Shown one piece after another: positions 17,501-42,134 of a stretch of 64,000 bases of DNA; the stretch's first letter is position 1; each line of letters starts with the position of its first letter. The position numbers were made by a program, and so were the translations under genes. The stretch is taken from positions 79,390,028-79,454,027 of the forward strand of contig NC_088295.1 in NCBI RefSeq assembly GCF_032854445.1. The letters run 5' to 3'. This stretch comes from Liolophura sinensis (Eukaryota; Mollusca; Polyplacophora; Chitonida; Chitonidae). The notes under the pieces were generated by a model. It was not told the DNA's origin. It saw nothing but the letters and a program-made list of their open reading frames with translations, and made no database searches.

Positions 17501-20500
17501 TATGTACGGTGTAAAACACCGATCAATAAATAAAATACATGTAGTGTAAACTTAGCGTTATAAAAATATTGGAGCATTATAAACATTGCAAATCCTTCGA
17601 TGGTGTTAAGACAAAGTCTTTTTAGCTCAGAAACAATCATTAACTGGAGACAAAGATTGTGACAAAGCCATATATGCATTAAAGAAGATAAAACACTTCC
17701 CTTCAGGAAACATGTGGGCACAGCAATGGGACAACATATTAGACGTCGTATTACCATACCCTAATAAACAAAGCGTAGACGTCACACCGGAAATGATCAA
17801 ACAGGTATGGAAACATGTTCCATTTTATCACGAAAGATTCAATATGTGTCATTATGTAGGCTATACAAAATATATACAACTCTCTCACCAGAATGCTGGT
17901 CGCCGTCCTATAAGTGAATTATTTTTCAGTGCGACATAGAACTCAAATAAATAAATCAAACATAGAACTCTCTTGATTTAATAATGAGCAGTGGAACGTT
18001 TGTCAAGTGACACAGCTGTCAGCATGCCTTTCATCGTAAGGCACTTCCCGCCCAAAACTGATCCGCCGTAGTGGTTTTACAAATGTCTTGCTGTTCATGA
18101 AACTGATGGGTTTAAAGTTGGTGTTTCTTTTCCAAATGTAGAAATGCCGAAATATAGGCCTACTTGTGTAATGTTGGCCTTCGGTTAGCAGGTGACGGTT
18201 CAAAGGGGATCATATATTAAAATAAGAGCTATTTCTCGGCAAATTCTAGATGTACACGGTCCAAATATTTATTTTGTGGCCAGCATTATGGTGGGAGGAA
18301 ATCGGGTAGAGCCCAGGGAAGCCCACGACCATCCGCAGGTTGCTGGCAGACATTTCCATTTATGACCGGAGAGTATGCCAGCATGAGCTGGACGCATTGG
18401 TTGGAGGCTCCTGGGTCATTGCGCCGTGCTTTAGTGCTAACCCCTCCGCCAAGGAGTCCCCCGGTCCAAATATTCAAACAGTTTAATGTCGGCAAAGGCT
18501 TAGGAAATGTTCCCTTAATTTTGGGCTTCAACGGAAAGTAAGCTCGTATTTGAACCGTTAACAGCTAACTGTTTACTGATATTCCAAATTTCAATAATTT
18601 TCTTATGTTGTTTTAAACATGTTTTTAAATTTTGATGTTCTTCATGAAAAAAAAGAGCCAAGTGTCACCAATTTAAAAACATTAACATTTTCATAGAATT
18701 ACACTTCGCTGAAGATGTTCGAAACTGCCGAGAGTTTTTTCACTTCACTTGGCCTGAAAAAGATGAGAGAGGAATTCTGGAATCGGTCAATTATTGAACG
18801 ACCGGGCGACGGGCGACCTTTGACCTGTCATGCCTCTGCTTGGGACTTTTTCGACGGCAAAGACTTTCGGTAAGGTATTTCACATCATAACATAAAACTA
18901 TATGCACAGATGTAGATCTACTCGGCTTACAGATAGAGGTGAATCACGATATGTACCATATTTCATCCGTAGAGTTACCATTTACTCCTTCGGCAAAACT
19001 TTGGCAACAGTTTCTTTCATTTGGCATTAAGAGGTCACAACCACGAATATTCATCTTTTCATTTGTTTCATTCAATTATCGATGCATGGGAAACATAGGT
19101 GTCTTCAAGGTCAGCTTTAGCTATTTTGTGGTAATTTCAGGATAAAGATGTGCACTCGTGACCATTTTGTGGTAAAATCGGGCTAAAGATGTGTTTGGCG
19201 TGACAATTTTTGCATTAGTTTCAGCAAGCGGATGTTGACTAGTGACTCAGTTTAAGATATAAATGTACGCAGTATATTGTCGTCATTCCAGGAGGGAAAT
19301 GTTAACTCCTGACTAAGTTTAGCAATTCCAGGACATAAATGTTCACTCCCGACTAACGTGTAGTAATTACAGGAGATAAATTTTCACTCCTGACTAACTT
19401 GGGGTAATTCCAGGAGATGAATGTTCACCCCTAACTAACTTGGGGTAATTCCAGGAGATAAATGTTCATTCCTGATTAACTTGTAGTAATTCCAGGAGAG
19501 AAATGTTTACTCCTGATTAGCTTGTGGTAATTCCAGGAGAGAAATGTTCATTCCTGATTAGCTTGTAGTAATTCCAGGAGAGAATTGTTCATTCCTGATT
19601 AACTTGGCGTAATTCCAGGAGATAAATGTTCATTCCTGATTAGCTTGTGGTAATTCCAGGAGAGAAATGTTCATTCCTGATTAGATTGTGGTAATTCCAG
19701 GAGATAAATGTTCACATCCTGATTAACTTGTAGTAATTCCAGGAGAGAAATGTTTATTCCTGATTAACTTGTAGTAGTTCCAGGAAAGAAGTGTTCACTC
19801 CTGACTAACTTGGGGTAATTCCAGGAGAGAAATGTTTATTCCTGATTAACTTGTAGTAGTTCCAGGAAAGAAGTGTTCACTCCTGACTAACTTGGGGTAA
19901 TTCCAGGAGATAAATGTTCACTCCTGATTAACTTGTAGTAATTCCAGGAGAGAAATGTTCATTCCTGATTAACTTGTAGTAGTTCCAGGAAAGAAGTGTT
20001 CACTCCTGACTAACTTGGGGTAATTCCAGGAGAGAAATGTTCATTCCAGATTGGCTTGTGGTAATTCCAGGAGAGAAAAATGTTCATTCCTGATTAACTT
20101 GGGGTAATACCAGGAGAGAAATGTTCATTTCTGACTAAATTGTGGTAATTCCAGGAGAGAAATGTTCATTCCTGACTAACTTGGGGGTAATTCCAGACTA
20201 GAAATGTTCATTCCTGATTAGCTTGTGGTAATTCCAGGAGAGAAATGTTCATTCCTGATTAGCTTGTAGTAATTCCAGGAGAGAAATGTTCATTCCTGAC
20301 TAACTTGGCGTAATTCCAGGCTAGAAATGTTCATTCCTGATTAGCTTGTGGTAATACCAGGAAAGAAAATGTTCATTCCTGACTAACTTGGGGTAATCCC
20401 AGGAGAGAAATGTTCATTCCTGATTAACTTGTAGTAATTTCAGGAGAGAAATGTTCATTCCTGATTAGATTGTGGTAATTCCAGGAGAGAAATGTTCTTT

Positions 20501-23500
20501 CCTGACTAACTTTGAGTAATTCGAGGACAGAAGTGTTCACTCCTGACTAACTTGGGGTAATTCCAGGAGAGAAATGTTCATTCCTGATTAACTTGTGGTA
20601 ATTCCAGGACAGAAACGTTCATTCCTGACTAACTTGGGGTAATTCCAGGAGAGAAATGTTCACTCCTGATTAGCTTGTGGTAATTCCAGGAGAGAATTGT
20701 TCATTCCTGATTAACTTGGCGTAATTCCAGGAGAGAAATGTTCATTCCTGACTAACTTGGGGTAATTCCAGGAGATAAATGTTCACTCCTGACAAACTTG
20801 TCATTTCAGGATAAGGATGTGCGCTTGTGACTACTTTTTAAATAATTCAAGATAAAGATGGTGACTATGTCAGAATAACACTGTTTATTAGTTTGTGATA
20901 ATCTCAGGATAAAGATGACTATTTTGTTTCAAGGTAAAGATGTACCCTCGTGACTATTTTGTGGTAATTTCAGGATAAAAATGTGCACACGTGTGAACAT
21001 GGAGGACTTAATAACGATTCATCACGAGATGGGACATATCCAGTACTTCATGCAATACAGTGATCAGCCGTTAATATACAGAGACGGGGCTAATCCGGGT
21101 ACAGTTAAAGCATTCATCAATATAAAAACATATTTGCTGGAACTAGCTTAGAATTAGAGAACGTTAATTTAAAAAATACTATTTCTACTTAAATAAATGT
21201 CTCCATTGATGGTGACAATGATTGTTCATTTAAAACTTTTATATACGGGAAATGTTAACCGATATAGTCCACATCATAACGTAGGCTTTTATATCACAGT
21301 GCGTCCACTCTACAGTGCTTGTGATGGTTCGTTGTTCAGTTTTCTTTGCACAAATCACATTTACAGCTCTGAATTTATTTCCTCAGGTTTCCATGAAGCC
21401 GTTGGAGACACCTTGGCGTTGTCCGTTGGCACAACGACACATTTAAACACCCTACATCTTCTTAATAAACTGCCAAGTTTTGCAGACAAGGGTAAACATT
21501 ACTTTTATCATAAAACACAGAGAAAAGAATACCCCAATGTGACCGACAAGAAAGAGTCAAACTACAGTTTGCTTCTATCGTCTACGTTTATTCAAAATCT
21601 TAACTAACCATCCCGATTTGCTTGTCTGTCTCATCTGTACGTGCTTGAATGCAAACACAAAGATTTGTACCGATTGTATTTCATTTCTTGCTGATAAAAA
21701 TGTTCATTACTGTGAAAAAAAGTTTTTGCATCTCTTTTGCAGAATTTCCCATCAACCATCTCATGAAGATTGCCCTGGAAAAGATCGCCTTCCTGCCATT
21801 TGGCTATCTGATAGATCTTTACAGATGGGATGTGTTTAGTGGCGTTACTGCCGAATCCCAATATAACAAACATTGGTGGGGCCTCAGGTGAGGTCACAAT
21901 ATAACAAACATTGGTGGGGCCTCAGGTGAGGTCACAATATAACAAACATTGGTGGGGCCTCAGGTGAGGTCACAATATAACAAACATTGGTGGGGCCTCA
22001 GGTGAGGTCACAATATAACAAACATTGGTGGGGCCTCAGGTGAGGTCACAATATAACAAACATTGGTGGGGCCTCACGTGAGGTCACAATATAACAAACA
22101 TTGGTGGGGCCTCACGTGAGGTCACAATATAACAAACATTGGTGGGGCCTCACGTGAGGTCACAATATAACAAACATTGGTGGGGCCTCACGTGAGGTCA
22201 CAATATAACAAACATTGGTGGGACCTCAGGTGAGGTCACAATATAACAAACATTGGTGGGGCCTCAGGTGAGGTCACAATATAACAAACATTGGTGGGGC
22301 CTCAGGTGAGGTCACAATATAACAAACATTGGTGGGGTCCCAGGTGAGGTCACAATATAACAAACATTGGTGGGGTCTCAGGTGAGGTCACAATATAGCA
22401 AACATTGGTGGGGTCTCAGGTGAGGTCACAATGTAACAAACATTGGTGAGGGCTAAGGTGAGGTCACAATATCACAAAACACTGGTGGGATCTCAGGTGA
22501 GGTCAAAATATAACAAGCATTGGTGGGGCCTCAAGTGAGGCCACAATATAACAAACATTGGTGGGGTCTCAGGTGAGGTCACAATGTAACAAACATTGGT
22601 GAGGGCTAAGGTGAGGTCACAATATCACAAACACTGGTGGGATCTCAGGTGAGGTCACAATATAACAAGCATTGGTGGGGCCTCAGGTGAGGTCACAATA
22701 TAACAAACATTGGTGGGGCTTGATGTGAGGTCACAATATAACAAATAATTTCGGGATCGGAGATGAGAGACCCATTAAAACAAACACTGGTGGGACTTGA
22801 GATGAGACACTCAATATAACAAACACTGAAGCGACCTGAGGTGCAAGTTCTAGTATAATAAACATTGATGGACCTGAGGTGAGAGTTCTAGTATAACAAA
22901 CATTGGTGGACCTGAGATGAGAGTTCTGGTATAACAAACATTGGTGGACCTGAGATGAGAGTTCCGGTATATCAAACATTGGTGGGCCTAACGTGAGAGT
23001 TCTAGTATAACAAACATTGGTGGACATGAGATGAGAGTTGCAATATAACAAACATTGGGGTACTTGAGGTGAGAGTTCTGGTATATCAAACATTGGTGGA
23101 CCTGAGGTTAGAGTTCCGGTATATCAAACATTGGTGGGCCTAACGTGAGAGTTCTGGTATATCAAACATTTGTGGACCTGAGATGAGGGTTCTGGTATAA
23201 CAAACATTGATGGACCTAACGTGAGAGTTCTGGTATAACAAACATTTGTGGACCTGAGGTGAGGGTTCTGGTATAACAAACATTGGTGGGCCTGAGGTGA
23301 GAGTTCTAGTATAACAAACATTGGTGGACCTGGGGTGAGAGTTCTGGTATAACAAACATTTGTGGACCTGAGGTGAGGGTTCTGGTATAACAAACATTGG
23401 TGGGCCTGAGGTGAGAGTTCTAGTATAACAAACATTCTTGGACATGAGATGAGAGTTCTGGTATAACAAACATTGGTGGGCCTGAGGTGAGAGTTCTGGT

Positions 23501-26500
23501 ATAACAAACATTGGTGGGCCTGAGGTGAGCGTTCTAGTATAACAAACATTGGTGGACCTGAGGTGAGAGTTCTGGTATAAAAAACATTGGTGGACCTGAG
23601 GTGAGGGTTCTGGTATAACAAACATTGGTGGACCTGAGGTGAGAGTTCTGGTATAAAAAACATTGGTGGACCTGAGGTGAGAGTTCTGGTATAACAAACA
23701 TTGGTGGACCTGAGGTGAGAGTTCTGGTATAACAAACATTGGTGGACATGAGATGAAAGTTTTGGTATAACAAACATTGGTGGACCTGAGATGAGGGTTC
23801 TGGTATAACGAACATTGGTGGATCTAAGGTGAGAGTTCTGGTATAACAAACATTGATGGACCTGAAATGAGAGTTCTGGTATAACAAACATTGGTGGACC
23901 TGAGGTGAGAGTTCTACTATAACAAACATTGGTGCATTGTCTTGAGGTGAGAAGTGAGAAACCCGATATCATTGCCCCTGTAATATAAACACTGATGGAC
24001 TCTGGTTGAGAGCCTCTGCAATACAGACATTGATGGAACCCGATGTCATTCTCCCTGTAATATAAATACTGATGGACTCTGGGTGAGAGCCTCTGCAATA
24101 TAGACATTGATGGAACCTGATGTCATTGTCCATGTAGTATAAACATCCTCTAGACAATGAAGGGACCATATATATAGACATACAATACAGATAATACAAC
24201 ATGTTGTTGTCACCTTACGTCTGAGATACCGCAACAGGCGACAGCCGAAAAATTGATGAGACGTTGTTTATTTATTTATTTCATTTTACCTAAATAAGGT
24301 AGAAACTTCAAGTATTTGCAGAGAAAGACCTGGTCTTTCGATATTGCTGTCAAGAGGAAGACTTGGAAGAGCTTTTATATTTTCTCCAAACTATTGAAAA
24401 TTTTGCTTATAAAATTCAAGGACAAATGTAAGAACGACGTATTTCACCTGGTTGCAGATGTAAATACCAAGGCTTGTCCCCTCCCGTATGGCGGTCTGAT
24501 GACGACTTTGATCCAGGTGCCAAGTTCCATGTCGCTGCTAATGTTCCCTACATAAGGTTGGTCTCTCCTAGAAACCTACAACTTTATGGACAGCGGCATG
24601 AAATTTTCAGTTAACTTCTTCAAACGCGATGCCTGAATAACAGGCAATGTTGGGAATCACAAGACACATTTACCTTTTGTTTTTATTTTTACTGGGCTAA
24701 GCACACTCTTATATTTGTTTCAATACCTTTTGTCAAAAATCTCTTGACCAGAAAGACTTGACCGAGTTATGTATATGTACAAGCTAAAGAAGGTAATTAT
24801 GGCTTAAAAGAACTTGGTGAAGATAGGTTACGGTTTGTGAACATTGTATGCACATGTATCATTTGTACATATCTGATTGTATTTCAGATATTTCGTCAGT
24901 TTCATCGTACAATTCCAGTTTCACAAGGCACTGTGTGATGAAGCAGGTCAAGCAGGTCTACCTCTCCATCAGTGTGATATTTACAACTCCACTAAGGCAG
25001 GGACACTGCTAAGGTACATGACCGTAATATTGTACTCTTAAGCCAAAGTTGTGCAAAACGATATTTCATGATTCTGACAACAAAAAATCCTCTAAATTTA
25101 CTCGTGAAACAAATGAACCGGGCACAAGATTGTTCCCCAGTGAGGGCAATCTGGACCTTTGTGAAATTATCGTCGCCTACATCAACCAATCATCATCTAT
25201 GAAAATGTTATGTGAGTACAGCAACATGAAAACTACTTCTGAAGTGACACAACTTTTTGAGATTCACATGATCTTGAACATATCATTTGACCGTTTTTCG
25301 CCGCTGAAATCTTAAAAGGTGGACAGCAAATGTTGTTCGTGTGCGAGTGACCGATATTACGGATCTTTTGACACCGAGGTGTGAAAAGTCTTTTTTCGAC
25401 AACAAATGTTGACCGTGTGCGCTAGGCTCGCAGATCTAGACAGTATGTAAACAGAGGATGTTAAAGCCTGAAAAGAATGTTTGAGCGTCGATATAACGGT
25501 TTCAACACTATATGGATTTCCGTTTATTATTTCTAATCCCCGAGACAAAATATTGAAACAGGGAGAAACTTAACTTAAAGAACAGGTTATTAAATTTTGA
25601 GAAAAATCCCTACCATCACCTGTTTAAAGTTGGCTTACATGTATTTATCTTAAATGAATATGTTACCAATGTGTATTCGTTGCCAGTAAAATGCTTAAGA
25701 TGGGATCCTCCAAACCCTGGCCGGAAGCCATGAATGTTATCACGAAACAAAGAAAAATAGACGCCACGGCACTGATGGAGTATTTCCAACCACTCACAGA
25801 GTACCTGAAGAAAGAAAACAATGATTCAAACGATACTGTGGGGTGGACCGACAACTGTCCCACTCTAGACGAGGAAGGTCAGTTTGAAAGGAACCTTCGG
25901 TTTCAGAAAATGTTTGGCAATCTTTGCATTAAAACATCACTTGCCTTTTCGTTGTATTGTGTGAGTTCTGGTGCGAAAAGACTTTTTACAAAGATTGTTA
26001 ACGTTGAAATAAGCACGGATGTTACAACCAATGTTTTGATAGCCCAGCGTGTTCATAGCATATGTTTCAAAGTTGGTACCAGCTTTTTTTTCTCTAGAAC
26101 GAGCGCAAGAATGGCTGCATAATACCTACGAACCATTAGCAGAGCTTAACTCTTACAATGAAGCTGTAGCTGACTGGAACTACGACACAAATCTGACCAA
26201 GCATAACCAAGCTATTACGGTAACTATGTTCCTAGTACACATGGGTGGCTAGAATTAGGATGGCTCAAGTACATGCAGGTCACCCCAGTAGACTATAGTG
26301 AAGTGGTTGTGTGTCATATCTAGCTATGGCTAGTGTCTACAGAATAGCACTTCCGAAGGCAGCACTAGGATGTAAATACTGTATAACTGCTATAGAACTT
26401 TTCCAGCTTGGGCAATAACGCTTAATCCAGAAACAAACAAACAGGAAGCTCTGTGTAATTAAACATACAAATATTACCAAGAATTTGGCGAATTTCAAAC

Positions 26501-29135
26501 AACAAAGGTGCTTGACAATGCGCGATTAGCACCGGGGCGTTTAGCTTTTGAGGGTGTTTAGGATGTTAATCCATCTTTTAATTTTTTTTTATTGATCACA
26601 AAAAGCTGCAAATGAACTTGGCGTACACGGCGTTTGCCAAGGAGGCCGCCAAAAATGCATCCAGTTTTGAATGGAAAAACTTCCGGAACCCGGACACCCG
26701 GAGACAGATGGAGAGTGTGACGGATCTGGGCATATACGCTTTGGATAATACTACTAAATTGAAAAGGGTAAGGGCTACACACCTGGTTAACAGACCTGGT
26801 AACTGTGATTACTATTACTGTCGTTCATTAGATGCTCTAACATATGTCCGGCCGTAAGTGGGAAGGTCTCCAGCAGCCTGCAGATGGTCATGGTTTTCCC
26901 CCTGGCACTGCCCGGTTTCATCCCACCATAATGCTGGCCACCGTCGTATAAATGAAATATTCTTGAGTACGGCGTAAAACACCAATCAAATAAATAAATA
27001 AATGTAATATGTGAGAAAAGAAAAACTGTGACAGTCCCATGTATGTTGGCTGAAAACAGCAGACCAGGTGTTCTAAAAATTAGACGAATTACAGTATGCA
27101 TTTACAACTGAGAAGCCTCTTTATAATACCGGTACATCTGCCATAATCTTACAAAATAGTTCACAACATCACGACTTCATTACAGAAAAGATTGAATTTG
27201 TACATTACTGCTTTTGGAGCCTTGATGATAATAAGCAGTTTCAAGGTTAAACTTTAGAGTAGCCTAACATTCGTTGATGACTACTTGTCTTCTACCAATA
27301 TGGTGTGCATGGCGTACATCACATCTGGGAAAGTTCGTTGATAACTTGCCAAATGTCGATAGTTTACTCCAGGCACTCCGGTTTCTTCTACCTTTGAAAC
27401 TTGCTGCCATCCCGTAAGTTAACAATTTATTAGACTTGTGTCAAACAACCAAATAAATAAATAAATAGAAATATCTCCATATTTTATTTCTATTCACAGA
27501 ATCGAAACAGAAAATATATAATGATTCATATGCATAAGAGTTTATCGGATTTTCGCGGCTTGTGGGTTAATCTTATAGAGGGTGAGGAGGGTGAGTAAAT
27601 CCTGGGTTATTCTTATGGGTAGGGCGCAGAGGGTGCGGAGGGTGCGTAAGGGTGGGGGAAGCCGACAGGTCGTGAAGTGCACCCGCACTCCATGGTGCAC
27701 CCGCACCCATGACTTGCACCCCAGGTAGGCCGCCCCGTGCCCGTGCGTGCTGCAATACTGCTGCTACTACAACACAGACGCTTCCAAAACACCCTTACAT
27801 CATATCGCGTCCTCTCCACCAATCACTACGCCCCATTTACGAACCCTCCGCACCCCCCCCCCCCCCACCCGACCCTTACGTACCCTCCTCGTCCTCCCCA
27901 TAAGAATAACCCACAAACGGCGAAATTGAACTGATATGCTACAGACATTGCATAGACAATATCAACATACACATTTGACACAGAATCTGCCATTATTCCC
28001 ATCAGTTCTGAAATTGTCTATTGTCTCTAACGAACGTAAGAATTAATGGGGGTTTTTTGTCGATGTATAATGTATAATTCAAACTTTCGTTGTAGCTGTC
28101 GGAGCTGACGTCACAGATGGAGGGTATGTACAGTAAGGGTGAAGTGTGTTTGGAGAAGGATCGCTGTTTGGAGATAGAGCCAGGTAAGACAAGCAAGTAC
28201 CGCCTGATTTATTATGCGAGCTATAAGGTTTCCATAAATATCAGGAGCCTTTTCCTCTGTAAGATTATCGTATGAGCATATACGCTGTAATAAGATACAG
28301 TATAAATACAGATTAATGATCAACCTATTTACCTCCCCGGATAGCACAGTTGGCAGAGCGTCAGCTTCGTGACCGGTAAATCCAGGATCAATCCTTGATC
28401 GAGTCACACCTAAGTATGCTTGCCTTCTTAGGCTTACTTGTCTTCGGTAAGTCGTCACAGTGAAGCAGCACTAAATAAAAGAGCGGTGGAAATCCGTCCT
28501 GCAACAAGGAGGCCTAGTTCTGCTTTTATCTGCAATATTCTTTGATGACTGTAATGTTCATTCAAAATCAAAAAGCCATTGAAACTTATATTCCCCTTAT
28601 ATTCAATCGCAAGCTATACGTAGTCAAAGATCTATTGATACATGCACCATGGTGTTTCGCAGATTTGACCCGCTTAATGGCTTCTAGCAGAGATTATCAT
28701 GAGCTGGCAAAAGCCTGGGAAGGATGGCGGAACGTCACAGGAAAACTCATGAAGCCATTGTACGAGGAGTTTGTCGATCTAAGCAACGAGGCAGCACGAG
28801 CATCGGGTAAGAAACCTTTTGCATCAGAGCGTAGTTGACATGCTTTTAGTTTAACGCACAAGAAGCGGATCTTTGTCGGGCCGTGAATGCTTCCGGTTTA
28901 ATCGGTGTCACCATTCTGGGACAGGAACTTTCAAGCTCTGCTTCCATAGCCCTTATGCCTATGTGGCACACCTTCACCATGTCAGTGTTCCTTTTTCGCC
29001 TTGCTGCAGTCTATCCATCGAATACATGTAATACTGCAGTTACAGGTTAGCCCTTATTAGGTCATCGAATGAAATCTTCCCTAGGTCGTGTAGGCTGTAT
29101 TCGAATCCACGCAAGTGTTCTGGTGTCAGATGATA

Positions 29136-29166
<31 letters not shown>

Positions 29167-32100
29167 GATTGGTGTTTTACGCCGTACTCAAGAATATTTC
29201 ACTTATACGACGGCGGCCAGCATTATGGTGGGTGGAAACCGGGCACAGCCCGGGGGAAACCCACGACCATCCGCAGGCTGCTGACAGACCTTCCCACTTA
29301 CGGCCGGAGAGGAAGCCAGCATGAGCTGGACTTGAACTCACAGCGACCGCATTGGTGAGAGCCTCCTGGGTCATTACGCTGCGCTAGCGCGCTAACCGAC
29401 TGAGCCAAATGTGTAAGTGCAAAACGAAGACAGGGTGAGTTTTATTTCAGTATCGAAATGGGGAATCCAAATTTCGTTCGCAAACAGTGATCTCGTGTTA
29501 CATTTTGGCATTCAAAACCTCCTTCTTGTGTGGGATTAACCATTCAGATACGCCAACGTTGTTCCCAAATCGATGTTTTGTGATCACGTGACCATAATTA
29601 TCATGGAGACATTTTGTGTTCAAAATGCTTTATTACACAACACAAGTTATCTGCTTATGTTTCTCCATGTTGGGCGGGGCGGGGGGAGAGTGGGGGTAGA
29701 ATGGATTTTGTTGCATTCTCTCTCATGCCCTCTCCACGCAGAGAGCTTCCCCTAGTTCTTTTGTTTGTATAGCATCATAAGATGGATACCCTGAAGGGAC
29801 AATCCAGAAGGGATTACCCCTGTTGTTGGTAGACTGTTGTTACAAAAAGTTCTGATAGTTACACACGATTGCTTGTACTAGTTAAACCATGTACAAGAGC
29901 AATAAGTAATTAAACATCCAGTGCAAGGAACAACAACTAACTGTGATTCTTCCCTCACACTCCGCCTTTTGGACGTATAGAGGTTACTGGCCTAAAAGTC
30001 CGTTGTATGTTTTTATCACGGCTTTATTTCTAAAAAAATCTACCACCAAGTCTATTGATGTTCATGACATAAATACCAGAAATGGATTGCTGTTACCCTT
30101 TTATTGGTGTGTTGAATCACAAGACTAAGGTCATTCAGAATAAAATCTTACATACAACTTATTACTGCAACGTTTTTCTACATGGACTAGTGTTATTTTC
30201 AAACTGGTTTTCAGGAATTGCAGATAGAAGACTAAACCTGTCTCTTACGGAGATTGTATATGGTTACTTCAAGATCGATTTTCCTAAAACTGATGTTAAA
30301 ATATTAAATTTATGTTTTTCATATGCCAAGTATTTAGCTTTAACTTTATGCTTTATTGCTAAATTAAAGCTGTTGAGATTAAAGAGCTCTGTTTAACTTT
30401 TATCACTCTTACTGGGACAAAAACCGTCGAATTCGCTCTTGCTTGAACTTACATGAAGTTAACAGGTGAACTCTTGTCTTCCGCCAATATAAAGTAAGTA
30501 ACACGTGAGAAAGTTCGCCAGCAACTTGGCTTACTGTGGACAATTAAGGTCTGTCAGCAACCGGCAGATGGTCGTGTGTTTTCTCCTGGCTTTGCCCGGT
30601 TTCCTCACACCATAATGCTGGCCGCTATCGTATAGGTGAAACATTCTTGAGTACGGCGTAAAACACCGGTCAAAAAAATAAATAAAATACTGTGGACAAT
30701 TTCCTCAACCGATAAAACCAGTCGCCATCGTGTAAATGAAATATTTTAGGTTTGGCTTTACATAACAATCAAATAATAAATTCATTTAAATATTGTTGTA
30801 CATGTTGTAGCTACAGAACATTCTCCTTGTCACTGTGATTGTTGCCCTAAACGCTCCCTGTTGGACAGTTCTTGCCTCACGAAAAAGGTTTATCTACCAA
30901 TATTGACCGGCCCTGATAGCACAGTTGGTAGAGTGTCCGCTTTGGGAGCGGTAGATCCAGGGTCAATCCTGGGTCGAGTCACACCTAAGACTTAAAAGAG
31001 GAAGTTGTAACTTCCTCGGTTGGCTTTCAGCATTAAGGGGATAGTGTAACGACTGGTTGACCCGTATCAGTATAGTGGCTCGGGCGGGGCAACTTACTTG
31101 CCTTTAGTAAGGGGCCTAAATGAAGCAGCACTAAATAAAAGAGCAGTGGAAATCAGTCCTGCAACAAGGAGACACGTTACATGCACTCTAAGGATTCCTT
31201 CGTCGTCATATGACTGAAAAATTGTTAAGTACGACGTTAAACCCCAAGCACTCACTCATTCACTCACTACCGATTTATTATTACGATAGGAATTTACAAC
31301 GACACTGGGGTTGCCTGGCGCTCAGCGTACGGTAAAAACGACACCTTGGCCGATGACCTGGAGGAGCAGTTTAAGAAGGTCCGACCTTTCTATGAACAAT
31401 TACAGGCCTACGTCCGTGGTAAACTCCGTCAGGTGTATGGTAAAGCATTGTTCCCAACCAGCGGTCATATCCCTGCGCACCTTCTTGGTAAGCTTTGCTC
31501 CGTCATAAGTTTTCTAAATTTACAGTATGAATGGAAAATTGAAACCCATAATTCTAGAAAGGGTAATCATTATCTAAAAAATTAACTTGTTAAAATCGCC
31601 CTTTTTTCTTAAGTGTATTAAAGAAATGGCAGTACAAAATGGCGAGCAGTCTTTCAACGTAACATTTATATTTTATATTATTTATTTAGTTTTATTATGA
31701 TTAAATTTAATATGAATAAATTACACGCACAAATTTGATATGAGAGACATGAGAAAGAAAACAATATTTTAAAACCTACCAGCCAATTAAACATTTGTTC
31801 AGTATTTATAATAAAAACCCAATATTTTAATATTTCATCTCATGATGAAAACTTAAGTTGTAATTTTTTCCTTTTCATAATTCATCCGGTATTTCCTCAA
31901 TGTTGTAATTCCCGTCTTGTAATCAATACACCCATTCAGATTAATTTATTGAGGTTTGCTCTCCATTTATTGAGGTTAGCTCCCCATTTATTTAGAGTAC
32001 ATGTGCATATCGCTCTCCAGTTATTCAGGGTAGCTCTCTATTTATTGACGTTAGCTCTCCAGTTCTTGAGGTTTGCTCTCCATTTATTCAGTGTAGCTCT

Positions 32101-35100
32101 GCATTTATTGGGAGTACATGTACATATGGCTTTATTCACAGCAACTCCCCATTTACTGAGATTAGATTTTATTGAGAGTAACTATTCATTTGTTCACATT
32201 GACTCTTGTAACTTCTGTTTCTGCTGGGCATTAGCTCATACGTTTCAATTAGCTCTTACTTCCATGTAATTACTGTCAGGACAGCTTTTAACAAATTGTT
32301 CTTTATATGTTGTTATTTCCATGTAATTACTGTCAGGACAGCTTTTAACAAATTGTCCCTTATATGTTGTTATTTCTACAGGTAACATGTGGGCCCAGCA
32401 ATGGAATAACATATACGATATTGTCAAGCCTTACAAAGATCAGCCAGCCATTGATGTGACACCTGAACTGAAGAAGCAAGTAAGAAGTGATAACTGCGAA
32501 CACCAACCTCTGGCATTGATATAGGCAATATTTTCGGCGATATACTCCTAGTTCTAACCTGTAAGTCGGTGGTTCTGTCCGACTGTCTCTTGGTCAGCCA
32601 AATTTTGACTTCTTATATTTTAACATAGGCCTCAAATTTTATAGTGATATTCATAACGTTCCTTCGACTTAACGAAGGGCCCTAAGTGAAAGACTACACG
32701 AAATACTACAGCGAGATATTGCAGCTATTGTGAATTTACGCTTCTTAGAATCAAGTCGGCTTCGGGAGCGTTAGATACATTGTCAATCCTGTATCGGATT
32801 ACACCTCAGACCTTAAAAGGGGAAGTTGTAGCTTCCTGGCTAGGCGTTCAGCATTAAAGGGATGGTGTATTGACCGGTTGACCCGTATCAGTATAATGGC
32901 TCCGGTGGGGCGGTTTAACGGCTTTAGGTAAGTTGTCCCAGCAAAGCAGCACTCTATAAAAGAGTGGTAGAAATCCGTCCTGCAACAAGAAGGCACATTA
33001 CATTCACGCTAAGGACTCTTTCGTCGTCCCGTAATAGTGCATGTCATATATGTTTGATTTAAATGTCTCTCCACAGAAATTCACAGCGCTTCGTATGTTC
33101 AAGACATCTGAGGAATTCTACAAATCTATTGGGTTACTTCCAATGCCAGAAACTTTCTGGAATGATTCAATGATCACCAAACCGACAGACGGTAGGAAGG
33201 TTGTATGTCATGCCTCAGCCTGGGACTTCAGTAATAGACACGATTACAGGTAAGTCTGTTGTAGACATTCCCCTGGTGTGTAACGACAGATGGCAGCAAG
33301 GTTGTATGTCATGCCTCAGCCTGGGACTTCAGTAATAGACACAACTACAGGTAAGTCTGTTGTAGACATTCCCCTGTGGTATACCGACAGATGGCAGCAC
33401 GGTTGTATGTCATGCCTCAGCCTGGGACTTTAGTAATAGACACGACTACAGGTAAGTCTGTTGAAGACATTACCCTGTGGTATATCGACAGATGGCAGAA
33501 AGGTTGTTTGTCATGCCTCAATCTGGTACTTCAGTATTAGACACAATTACAGGTAAGTCTGTTGTAGACATTCCCCTGGTGTATAACGACAGATGGCAGC
33601 AAGGTTGTATGTCATGCCTCAGCCTAGGACTTTAGTAACAGACACGATTACAAGTGAGTCTGTTGTAGACATTACCCTGTGGTATACCGACAGATGGCAG
33701 CAAGGTTGTATGTTATGCCTCGGCCTGGGGCTTCAGTTATAGACACGATTACAGGTAAGTCTGTTGCAGACATTCCCCTGTGGTATACCGACAGATGGCA
33801 GGAATGTTGTATGCCACGCCTCAGTGTGGGACTTCAGTAATATACACGATTTTGGTGAGCCTGTAGAAGACATTTACCTGAAAACAGACAGTTGACAGGT
33901 AGACACTGCGCTCCTAACAGAGGGATAAGACAGTGCTAGAGTATGAAGAACGGTCTGTGCAAGCATATCTATTTCTGTGGTATCTATCTGTGAAACAGTT
34001 TCACGACAAACGTTTGTTTTTAGCTGTTCAAAACTAGTGTACAAAACACATATTTTGTACTGTACCAATTTAACATTTATTTCTGTTCTTTCTGGTCCGT
34101 AGAATAAAGATGTGTACGGACATAACAATGGAGGACCTAATCGTGATTCATCATGAGATGGGACACATTCAGTACTATCTCCAATATAAGGATCTCCCTA
34201 TCACCTATAGGACAGGTGCAAATCCAGGTCAGGCATTTTAGCTCAACATTTATTTATTTATTTACCTTATTGGTTAGCGACTCTTTAATAGTAGTTTTCA
34301 AAGTGACTTGCCATGGCAGTATGGCGTAGCTGCTTTAAGGTAAAGCATGGTTACATGTACATGTACTTGCCTTTCTTTCTAAATGACAGTATTCATGTAG
34401 ATTCAAAACTACCGACAGGTTATCAATATTTTTTGCAATATTTGACATCCAAACATATCAATGAAAATTATTCATAAAATTAATCAGAACTTGTCTTTTT
34501 AGTTTTCTATAATCTATATATTAAAGTTACAATTTGCGTAAATGACTTCGCTGTGTTGTAACTTTGTGTATCGAAACGTGTGTACTAAATCAGCTAGAGA
34601 GGGCCCTGTAAATAGAACAGTTCTGAAATAAATTGGCATATTGCTCGTGGTTACAGTCAGTCGCATTTCTGTTTTATTTTTACAGGATTTCACGAAGCTG
34701 TAGGTGACACGCTGGCGCTCTCAGTATCTACTCCAGGGCACCTCCGAAAAATTGGACTTCTCACTTCGTCTAATACATCTTACGGTAAACGAACTCATGG
34801 TTTGTAAAAACTAAAACTCTGCTTTGATTCATTAATGGACAGTTATATCTCTGTCCCTTGCCCGAAAAGTGTTTAGCTAGAGCAATGTGAGGCCATTTTC
34901 AAATTAGGCTTTACAGATTGTAATAGTGCAACATTTTACAAATAAAAAAAAGAAACAAAAATATTTATTTATTTATTTAGAGTTTTACACATTACTCAAG
35001 AACATTTCACTTACACGACGGCGGCCAGAATTATGGTTGGAGGAAACCTGACAGAACACGGGAGACACCCACGACCATCCGCAGGTTGCTGCACAAGTGA

Positions 35101-38258: not shown

Positions 38259-38511
38259 TGAGTGAGTGTTTGGAGTTTAACGTCCTACTTAACAATTTTT
38301 CAGTCATATGACGACGAATGAGTCCTTAGAGTGCATGTAATGTGCCTCCTTATTGCAGGACGCATTTCCACCGCTCTTTTACCCAAGGCAAGTAAGTTGC
38401 CATACCCGAACCATTATACTGATACGGGTCAACCAACCGTTGGACATCCCCTTAATGCTGAAAACCAAGCGAGGAAGCCACGATTTCCTCTTTCAAAGTC
38501 TTAGGTGTGAT
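38259..38511 (-). mobile_element. SINE family A, reverse copy
   Basis: GTGAGTGAGTGTTTGGAGTT (reverse tail), ACAATTTTTCAGTCATATGA, TTTCCACCGCTCTTTTACCC, GATACGGGTCAACCAACCGT and TCTTAGGTGTGA. The tRNA-like head is lost where the 45-bp array begins. Confidence 0.88.
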
Positions 38512-39900
38512 CCAAACCCAATTAAGTTACCTGCACAGGTTCACTACCAAGACGATACAAACCCAATAAAGGTACCTTCATCAGTCCACTACTAAGACAA
38601 TCCAAACCCAATAAAGTTACCTGTACCAGTTCACCACCAGGACAATCCAAACCAAATAAAGTTACCTGCATCAGTCCACTGCCAAGACGATCCAAACTCA
38701 ATAAAGTTACCTGTTCCAGTTCACTACCAAGACGATCCAAACCCAATAAAGTTACCTATTCCAGTTCACTACCAAGACAATCCAAGACCACTAAAGTTGC
38801 CTGCATCAGTCAACTACCAAGACGACCCAAGGCCAATATAGTTACCTGCATCAGTTCACTACCAAGACGATCCAAACTCAATAAAGTTGCCTGCATCAGT
38901 CAACTACCAAGACGACCCAAGGCCAATATATTTACCTGCACCAGTCCACTACCAAGACAATCCAAGACCAATAAAGTTACCTGCATCAGTCCACTACCAA
39001 GACGACCCAAGGCCAATATATTTACCTGCACCAGTCCACTACCAAGACAATCCAAGACCAATAAAGTTACCTGCATCAGTCAACTACCAAGACGACCCAA
39101 GGCCAATATATTTACCTGCTCCAGTCCACTACCAAGACAATCCAAGACCAATAAAGTTACCTGCATCAGTCAACTACCAAGACGACCCAAGGCCAATATG
39201 TTTACCTGCACCAGTCCACTACCAAGACAATCCAAGACCAATAAAGTTACCTGCATCAGTCAACTACCAAGACGACCCAAGGCCAATATATTTACCTGCA
39301 CCAGTCCACTACCAAGACAATCCAAGACCAATAAAGTTACCTGCATCAGTCAACTACCAAGACGACCCAAGGCCAATATGTTTACCTGCACCAGTCCACT
39401 ACCAAGACAATCCAAGACCAATAAAGTTACCTGCATCAGTCCACTACCAAGACGACCCAAGGCCAATATGTTTACCTGCACCAGTCCACTACCAAGACAA
39501 TCCAAGACCAATAAAGTTACCTGCATCAGTCCACTACCAAGGCGACCCGAGGCCAGTATAATTACTTGCATCAGTCTACTTGCCAAGGCAATCCAAGGCC
39601 GAGAAAGTTACCTATCAAGGCAATCCAAGGCAAATAAAGCTCCCTGCACTAGCTGACTTAACAAAGCAATTCAAGTACAATAAAGTTAGTTATATCAGTT
39701 CACTTGCCAAAGTAATCGAAGGCCGATAAATTTACCTGTACCAGTTTACCAGGAAGCCAATCCAAGACCAATAAAGTTACGTGTATCGGTTCACTTACCA
39801 AGACAATCAAGATCAATCAAGTTACCTGTACCAGTCTACTAGGAAGACAATCCAAGACCAATAAAAATACCTGTACCAATCCACTACCAAGACAATCTAA
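38512..39900 (+). repeat. 45-bp minisatellite with 90-bp higher-order period
   Basis: Units such as AAAGTTACCTGCATCAGTCC then ACTACCAAGACGACCCAAGG alternate with a variant having ATTTACCTGCACCAGTCCAC and GACAATCCAAGACCA, giving a 90-bp double unit that is very regular at about 38880-39540. Later copies decay to about 39900. Open frames exist on both strands because 45 is a multiple of three. The array starts exactly where the SINE loses its head. Confidence 0.92.
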
Positions 39901-40275
39901 GACTAATCGTGATCGAACCCACGACCATGGCACATGTGTGCCCTGTGATCGCCTGTCCTAGTCTACTACTACGATAATCCCTTACCATTGTAGTTATCAG
40001 TCCGAGCTATCTACAAAGGTAATTAAAGGTCAATGTAACTTAAACTCGGTCTATAACAGGTAATTCAACGTCAGGGTGGCATTCGCCTTTTAGACTCGTC
40101 CACCAGGTAATTTAAGACCAAAAGCAACCTTTTCAGTTACTCTTTGAGGTATATTGTACGTAGGCTGCTAAGTGGGCATTAGATTTGTAATATATATGCT
40201 ACCGGTATGTTAGCAATCATAGCAGCTTCCTCGATTCGAGTATACCACAATTTTCTAATAAAAATGACTGATTGA

Positions 40276-40611: not shown

Positions 40612-42134
40612 TACTATCCCAAAAAAGAAACGCATAACCCGGTTTTTTGCGGAGGTGATGCAGTCTTTTCAATTATGCATAACTAAATAAGAATTGCTAT
40701 TCTGCAAATATTTTTTTACACAGATTAAGGAAGGGTCCATATCTAGACAACAAGGCCATCAACTTGAGGTAAGACACTCACAATGAGTCTCCCACTTGAA
40801 TGGAATGTCAGTATCTGTTGTGACCACCACGGGCACGAATAACAGTTCTGACACGCCTTGTGTGAGGCGCTGGATAGAGGCCTGGGGAATGTTCTGCCAC
40901 TCCTCCTGCAAACATGCAACTTGCTCTTGAAGCGTTTGGGGTTGAGGCTGACGTTGGCGTAGACGTCGATCAAGTTCATCCCACAGATGCTCAATTGGGT
41001 TAAGATCCGGGGAACGGGACGGCCAGGGTAGCACATTTACATTGTTTTCGGCGAGGAAGTCCCTTGTGACACGTGCCGTGTGCGGTCTGGCGTTGTCCTG
41101 CTGGAACAACTCCCGCTGAACGTCAATGACAGGTAAGAGGTGTGGCTGCAGGATGGTGTCTCGGTAGCGTACGGCCGTAAGATTTCCCTGAACGTGGACA
41201 AGATTTGTACGACCAGTATACGATATTGCTGCCCACATCATCACACTCCCTCCACCAAATCTGTCCACTTGGCGTACGCAGTTAGGGGCATAACGTTCGT
41301 GAGCACGTCTGTAAACCCGGTTTCTACCATCACGTCTCTGCAATAGGAATCTGGACTCATCACTGAACCAAATGCGTCGCCAGTTGCGTAGATTACATGC
41401 AGTCACGTTGTTACACCATCGGAGGCGATTGGCGCGATGGTGAGGACGCAGCACGATCCCAACATAGGGCCTCCTGGCTCTTAGTCCATGTTCCCTCAGC
41501 CTGTTCCGCACTGTCTGACCTGATATCCTCCTCAGTCCCGGTATGCTGGCTGCTGTGCTTTCAGCTGTAGCACAACGGTCACGCAAATGGAGAACCCTTA
41601 TGTAGCGATATTGGGCTGCTGTAGTGACACGTGGTCGACCTGAACGCCGACAGTCATTTGTTGTTCCAGTATTGTTGTAGCGGGCAGCAAGCCGCGAAAT
41701 CGTGCTCTGGCTGACGTGTAGACGCCTAGAAATGGACGATTGGGACTCTCCAGCTTGAAGTCTTCCAATGGCAATATTTCTTGTGACAGTGTCAAGACGT
41801 GGCATGTTGAATCAGCTTGAAAACACCACTTGAAAGACGCTGATTTCCGGCCCGAAGTTGCGGTTTTATAGTCACACACTGCATGCTTTCCATGCGTAAG
41901 TTCGGCGTGTAAGACTGCACGTGATGCAGTGTGGTGCTGTATTTTTTACTTCTTCCAAAAACGGCCTCCAAACTCAACATTTTCAACCAAGAAATGTTTT
42001 GAGGAATAAAATGTGTGCTAACTGTGACTATTAACAATATTAAAAAAACATTTTGCTCATGAAATGAAGACAAAATGTATTTATTTCATTTTAAAATAAA
42101 ACAAAACACCTATGCGTTTTTTTTTTGGATAGTG
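40612..42134 (-). mobile_element. Intact Tc1-type DNA transposon
   Basis: 1523 bp bounded by inverted ends. The left end TACTATCCCAAAAAAGAAAC with GCATA pairs with the right end TATGCG, a T-run and GGATAGTG. TA dinucleotides flank both sides (40610-40611, 42135-42136), as expected of Tc1/mariner target duplication. It carries one uninterrupted transposase gene on the minus strand. Confidence 0.93.
40759..41805 (-). CDS. Tc1-like transposase, DD34E, uninterrupted
   Basis: 348 codons without stop or frameshift, full length for a Tc1 transposase. N-terminal paired-type helix-turn-helix domains include GRLQAGESQSSISRRLHVSQ and STISRLAARYN, followed by the RRSGRPRVTT linker. Catalytic triad: Asp in WFSDESRFLL, Asp in FQQDNARPHTA, Glu in SPDLNPIEHLWDELDRR, with 34 residues between the second Asp and the Glu. 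The enzyme binds the terminal inverted repeats and moves the element by cut-and-paste. The gene is in reverse orientation between ACE and YME1L. Intact reading frame and ends indicate recent insertion; whether it is active cannot be told here. Confidence 0.95.
   Translation of the reverse strand: MPRLDTVTRNIAIGRLQAGESQSSISRRLHVSQSTISRLAARYNNTGTTNDCRRSGRPRVTTAAQYRYIRVLHLRDRCATAESTAASIPGLRRISGQTVRNRLREHGLRARRPYVGIVLRPHHRANRLRWCNNVTACNLRNWRRIWFSDESRFLLQRRDGRNRVYRRAHERYAPNCVRQVDRFGGGSVMMWAAISYTGRTNLVHVQGNLTAVRYRDTILQPHLLPVIDVQRELFQQDNARPHTARVTRDFLAENNVNVLPWPSRSPDLNPIEHLWDELDRRLRQRQPQPQTLQEQVACLQEEWQNIPQASIQRLTQGVSELLFVPVVVTTDTDIPFKWETHCECLTSS

Follow-up and report, generated by a model that had tools for sequence, protein, structure and literature searches.

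Splice-junction minisatellites in an angiotensin-converting-enzyme gene of the chiton Liolophura sinensis recall the mirages of amphioxus

Tandem duplications of exon-intron boundaries, called mirages, are already known in amphioxus, where the Adh gene is reportedly one such case (the 2002 work of Canestro in NAR is named for it). The parts of the mirage literature consulted give variable unit lengths (10-160 bp as cited), two haplotypes of the globin gene BflGb6 that carry 6 and 3 repeat units, and both undisturbed splicing and length and somatic instability. PGBD5 is a described case in the consulted part of PMC3902484. Here we describe arrays of the same anatomy in a two-domain angiotensin-converting-enzyme (ACE) homologue of the chiton Liolophura sinensis, located in a stretch of 64,000 nucleotides (the window; G000:C1:79390028-79454027 of the searched genome of 609,464,459 bases in 632 contigs). 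According to the consulted part of its description, the assembly was first published under the name L. japonica (PMC11068029). A sequence-only reading of the window had held that no described element class behaves in this way, a statement that the amphioxus mirages contradict. It had also held that three arrays in ACE each copy their own splice junction, in units of 41 bp for an acceptor and of 38 bp and 101 bp for two donors, and Tandem Repeats Finder (TRF) together with the gene model bore this out (Table 1).

The window gene was assigned to ACE by matches to the PF01401 profile, which also revealed further ACE-related sequence on the opposite strand, at a distance of about 200 kb. Exons were modelled from these matches and phase-compatible splice sites, all sites being predicted. 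The introns at 18869-20974 and 33249-34103 both lie at about position 331 of PF01401, one in each ACE domain, in agreement with the earlier claim that the introns of the 41-bp and 101-bp arrays occupy paralogous positions; yet the two arrays copy opposite intron ends. The 41-bp unit copies the acceptor TTTCAG/GATAAA. Its far-end copy at 19125 is identical to the gene junction at 35/41 positions (other listed copies, 22-30/41), and degenerate copies at 20794-20957 bridge the array core and the exon, the array thus exceeding the TRF core. This core seems to have been homogenised toward a derived version of the unit, and AG is retained in 39 of the 40 array copies located from 19250 onward. The 38-bp unit copies the donor CCTCAG/GTGAGG, with GT in 43/53 array copies. 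The first 23 copies match its gene copy at an identity of 0.89-1.0 and those further out at 0.68-0.87, identity dropping with distance from the exon (rho = -0.81, P = 1.4e-13), and the distal copies form a diverged subfamily. The unit of the adjoining 77/38-bp array gave no significant junction match and by eye is the degenerate tail of the 38-bp array. The 101-bp unit copies the donor TTACAG/GTAAGT, with GT in 6/6 copies besides the gene copy. Three of the six array rows in the window ACE gene span a junction.

Table 1. Arrays and ACE exons in the window (positions counted from its first letter)
Feature	Position	Strand	Copies or relation to array	Basis
ACE N-domain exon, 5' of the 41-bp array	18697-18869	+		PF01401 match 18670-18870, phase-linked splice sites
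41-bp acceptor-junction array	19125-20998 (TRF core 19277-20801)	+	37 copies in TRF core	TRF, copy-by-copy identity
ACE exon encoding the HHEMGH zinc site	20974-21098	+	gene copy of the 41-bp unit: acceptor junction 20973/20974	
ACE exon	21743-21887	+	gene copy of the 38-bp unit: last 29-32 bases with donor 21887/21888	
38-bp donor-junction array	21856-23934	+	54.6 copies	TRF
77/38-bp array directly after the 38-bp array	23960-24145	+		TRF, junction tests
57-bp array	32256-32376	+	two copies; ends 5 bp before acceptor 32381/32382, adjoining, not spanning	TRF
ACE C-domain exon	33077-33249	+	gene copy of the 101-bp unit: last 69 bases with donor 33249/33250	
101-bp donor-junction array	33181-33851	+	6.6 copies by TRF; 7 including the gene copy	TRF
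Exon 3' of the 101-bp array, paralogous to 20974-21098	34103-34227	+		PF01401-based gene model

The arrays differ in junction, unit length and age, as expected from the earlier claim that they arose separately. In searches of the 609-Mb genome, with one candidate region scored for each unit and a tool that passes over very common words, each of the three ACE units matched its own array only. No junction array was present in the homologous introns of two further ACE domains; in one of these introns, an 18-bp repeat of two copies scored under the cut. A single shared event within ACE was rejected, since the arrays differ in all three respects and the homologous introns lack junction arrays. The identity gradient of the 38-bp array runs from the exon, whereas the most exon-like copy of the 41-bp array lies at its far end, which points to different ages. 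Judged from the sequence, the three arrays are separate in origin and probably also in age. Across their junctions, the three ACE units gave alignment scores of 41, 184 and 243; among 13,310 cross-family array-junction pairs the 99.9% point was 27, one pair reached at least 41 and the maximum was 60. As a separate observation, the related ACE gene L005 (G000:C1 79662717-79662848 and 79662975-79663115, minus strand) carries its HHEMGH zinc-site exon in two adjacent, non-identical versions, which cover PF01401 positions 331-374 and 327-373 and look like mutually exclusive active-site exons.

The chiton arrays and the amphioxus mirages share units that lie across the exon-intron boundary, the involvement of both 5' and 3' boundaries (two donors and one acceptor in ACE), variable unit length, AG or GT retained in many copies, occurrence in several genes, and copies at cluster edges that are exempt from homogenisation. 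By this anatomy, as far as sequence comparison goes, the chiton arrays are a known kind of repeat, the mirage, in a new phylum. They differ from the amphioxus cases in their molluscan host, in reaching about 54 copies and 2 kb, and in the presence of three independent arrays in one gene. Ordinary intronic minisatellites (variable-number tandem repeats) likewise consist of tandem units that measure tens to hundreds of bases, with homogenised cores and diverged edges. They mostly contain no splice junction, whereas 12 of the 62 array rows sampled outside the window ACE gene include one. A related process is the tandem genomic duplication of AGGT-bearing segments, treated as a route of intron gain in the consulted part of a review (PMC3443670). 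It also copies splice-like sequence in tandem, but there an exonic duplication gives rise to a new intron, whereas in the chiton existing introns lengthen; this candidate was rejected, as the three introns lie at PF01401 positions of about 331 and 455, which are intron positions in other ACE domains too. Full-text literature searches, which left most subscription journals uncovered, returned no recognised report of boundary arrays outside amphioxus. The consulted part of a Conus gene-structure paper deals with microsatellites and ordinary splice sites (PMC3862624).

The comparison sample comprised 23 regions and 269,000 bases (9 CCT/Cpn60, 10 myosin, 2 ALDH and 2 related ACE regions; 14 search matches to ALDH were obtained and two genes used). 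Regions were picked by exon matches and not by arrays. The last six stretches enlarged a first sample: three were new (two ALDH regions and a myosin region), and three extended myosin regions in which arrays had already been seen (MYO_3 and MYO_26 had a junction array). Exons were modelled from profile matches and tblastn between paralogues, and splice sites were set by consensus and phase. In CCT_8 one donor was chosen separately, and the models omit several read-through copies as well as one exon of an adjacent pair in an ACE relative. Exons missed by both profile and tblastn are unmodelled, so the counts of junction matches are minimum values, and some splice sites may be misplaced. Rows with a TRF score below 100, a period below 15 or fewer than 2 copies were excluded before counting, among them one weak 2.2-copy repeat that overlaps a donor. 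An array was called spanning when the unit alignment extended 6 or more bases past the junction in both directions. Two rows from MYO_11 were merged as one dispersed family, reducing 62 rows to 60 arrays; the row counts include 8 rows in one-sided end segments, one of these spanning.

The 12 rows that copy the adjacent junction (10 donor, 2 acceptor) correspond after merging to 11 of the 60 arrays (9 donor, 2 acceptor), distributed over 8 of the 23 regions. Of the 160 internal introns, 10 contain such an array, as does one intron at a region end, and three of the gene regions hold two junction arrays each. With the window ACE gene included, 15 of 68 rows span a junction, the majority of arrays being non-spanning. 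When the 62 rows were compared with the junctions of other gene families, 0 of 15,426 tests gave a spanning match, and comparison with non-adjacent junctions of the same gene gave 0 of 836. Sequence coincidence is excluded as the source of the junction matches in these rows, and the similarity to own junctions that the sequence-only reading had proposed goes beyond chance in this sample. That reading had named a restriction to ACE alone as telling against it; since junction arrays also occur in the other regions, no such restriction exists. Across the 24 gene regions, arrays occupy 17% of internal intron DNA (39,242/226,217 bp) and are present in 48 of 182 internal intron segments. The unit lengths of 11 of the 14 independent junction arrays are not multiples of three, so the reading frame would shift if most copies were used. 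In the CCT gamma region L012 (sense 507-2328), a single exon has one array adjoining its acceptor (distance -1) and another adjoining its donor (distance 12), neither array covering the junction far enough to count as spanning.

We favour, at a probability of about two in three, the reading that these arrays are intronic minisatellites of the mirage type, the product of very active intronic array formation that tolerates units spanning splice sites. Short segments would often be tandemly duplicated and amplified at many intronic places in this genome, putatively by slippage or unequal exchange. Where a duplicated segment lay across an exon edge, the gene would survive, with splicing presumed to use the exon-continuous copy for the mRNA, and selection at the protein level would keep that copy constant. 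The remaining copies would drift and homogenise like those of an ordinary minisatellite, and re-amplification from the exon-side copy may occur. Junction arrays would then be common chiefly because intronic arrays are common.

Alternatively, duplications might begin preferentially at exon edges and the arrays then extend into the intron, triggered for example by co-transcriptional structures, nucleosome edges or AG/GT-like microhomology; we consider this rather unlikely. Its test is the number of arrays expected to straddle a junction under even placement. When every array was collapsed to a single unit, the expectation was 7.5 of 60, against 11 observed (ratio 1.5, P = 0.10). The expectation fell to 6.4 when the array in question alone was collapsed (P = 0.035) and to 3.6 at present intron lengths (P = 0.0005). 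The two collapsed-array nulls are the fairer ones, since array growth has lengthened the introns. The special seeding at junctions claimed by the sequence-only reading is therefore not established by these counts. Several points weigh against even placement and thus against the reading we favour. Junction arrays are in 1.5 to 3-fold excess, nominally significant under the more lenient nulls. In the myosin set, 9/36 rows spanned a junction against 4.2 expected (P = 0.01), the set before enlargement giving 6/19 against 2.9 (P = 0.035). The lean toward donors (P = 0.065) is unexplained by even seeding, and one 1.9-copy array that starts 1 bp after a donor fell under the cut and was uncounted. Preferential seeding is further favoured by the 12/36 myosin rows that span a junction or lie within 20 bp of one (7.1 expected, P = 0.019), and by the clustering of three arrays in ACE and of two each in three other regions. 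The other gene sets speak against it, with 3/17 rows spanning in the CCT genes (2.5 expected) and 0/9 in the ACE relatives and ALDH genes together (0.8 expected).

The first sample alone gave 9/40 rows against 5.75 expected (P = 0.087). Because the enlargement extended regions with known arrays, the set is not fully blind and the P values carry an optional-stopping caveat. Across the genome, the donor motif AGGTAAGT occurred in 948 tandem pairs and the reversed motif in 725 (1.3x), and distinct arrays numbered about 20 against 17 (by eye, among the first listed places, on C1 up to 54.8 and 51.6 Mb). This lack of a clear excess counts against preferential seeding, but 0 of the 7 donor arrays then found outside the window ACE gene match AGGTAAGT, so the test is low in sensitivity and by itself argues only against a large genome-wide excess. 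Taken together, the counts point only weakly to seeding by splice junctions, and a true bias is possible.

In 12 of the 14 junction arrays (3 in ACE, 9 in other genes), 186 of 200 array copies contain the splice dinucleotide (GT or AG), and many intact decoy sites therefore stand beside the real site. Elsewhere in the units, the same dinucleotides were retained in 532 of 651 cases (82%). Against random interior dinucleotides, the excess was not significant by copy (186 vs 174.6, P = 0.18) and reached P = 0.02 by array (0.964 vs 0.886). On a simple consensus score, the predicted donor score equalled or exceeded that of the real donor in 19/54 copies of the 38-bp array and 5/7 of the 101-bp array, gene copy included. 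At the least, decoy splice sites escape purging. The retention excess by array and the many decoys that match the real donor would also be expected if the arrays were kept for a decoy-site function, such as titrating or holding U1/U2, slowing splicing or guarding against early polyadenylation. We consider such a function improbable, given the non-significant excess by copy, the homologous introns of other ACE domains without arrays, and the loss of GT from 10/53 copies of the 38-bp array. Selection on decoy sites was rejected as an explanation, giving a weak signal only.

An origin of the units from dispersed or mobile elements, or of the arrays as assembly artefacts, is highly improbable. The window does contain a frame for a Tc1/mariner-type transposase and a tRNA-like repeat, but the confinement of the ACE units to their own arrays, in the genome searches with one region scored per unit, leaves a dispersed-element origin unsupported, the units of other genes match the adjacent junction and no foreign or non-adjacent one, the copies diverge gradually, and the HiFi reads exceed these arrays in length (mean 8,347 bp in the consulted part of PMC11068029).

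These results extend boundary arrays to molluscs, where the literature consulted treats cephalochordates only, and indicate that such arrays can be frequent. They provide natural substrates, with up to about 50 similar sites behind a single real donor and many of these predicted to be equally strong, so that the choice of the spliceosome among competing sites becomes directly testable. In the consulted part of the published annotation, the class 'other' (simple repeat, microsatellite, RNA) accounts for 0.08% and unclassified repeats for 14% (PMC11068029). Set against the share of sampled internal intron DNA in TRF arrays given above, this 0.08% suggests that introns of this kind may be treated wrongly in gene and repeat annotation. 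We think it rather unlikely that exon edges are genuine hot spots for array founding in chitons and, independently, in amphioxus. If they were, extrapolation from the 10 of 160 internal introns would predict thousands of introns with intact decoys, and the spliceosome would have to tell identical sites apart by position alone.

Several further features were recorded in the window and the genome. Eight mollusc-haemocyanin beta-sandwich domains neighbour the ACE region, consistent with a mollusc source. Downstream of ACE, a 45/90-bp array occupies window positions 38509-39907; its reverse-complement unit holds a donor-like GATGCAG/GTAAC to which no exon could be assigned, and its plus-strand frame is open for 376 codons. 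An open frame of 350 aa on the minus strand at 40759-41811 contains Tc1/mariner-type transposase domains (DDE_3, HTH_Tnp_Tc3_2). The tRNA-like match at 30910-30981, barely over the Rfam cut-off, lies in what appears to be a dispersed repeat like a short interspersed element (SINE-like). At G000:C8:10565028-10571210 and G000:C3:10775981-10779943, myosin-head matches fall in open frames of 1339-1870 aa, and these two myosin copies are possibly intron-poor or intronless.

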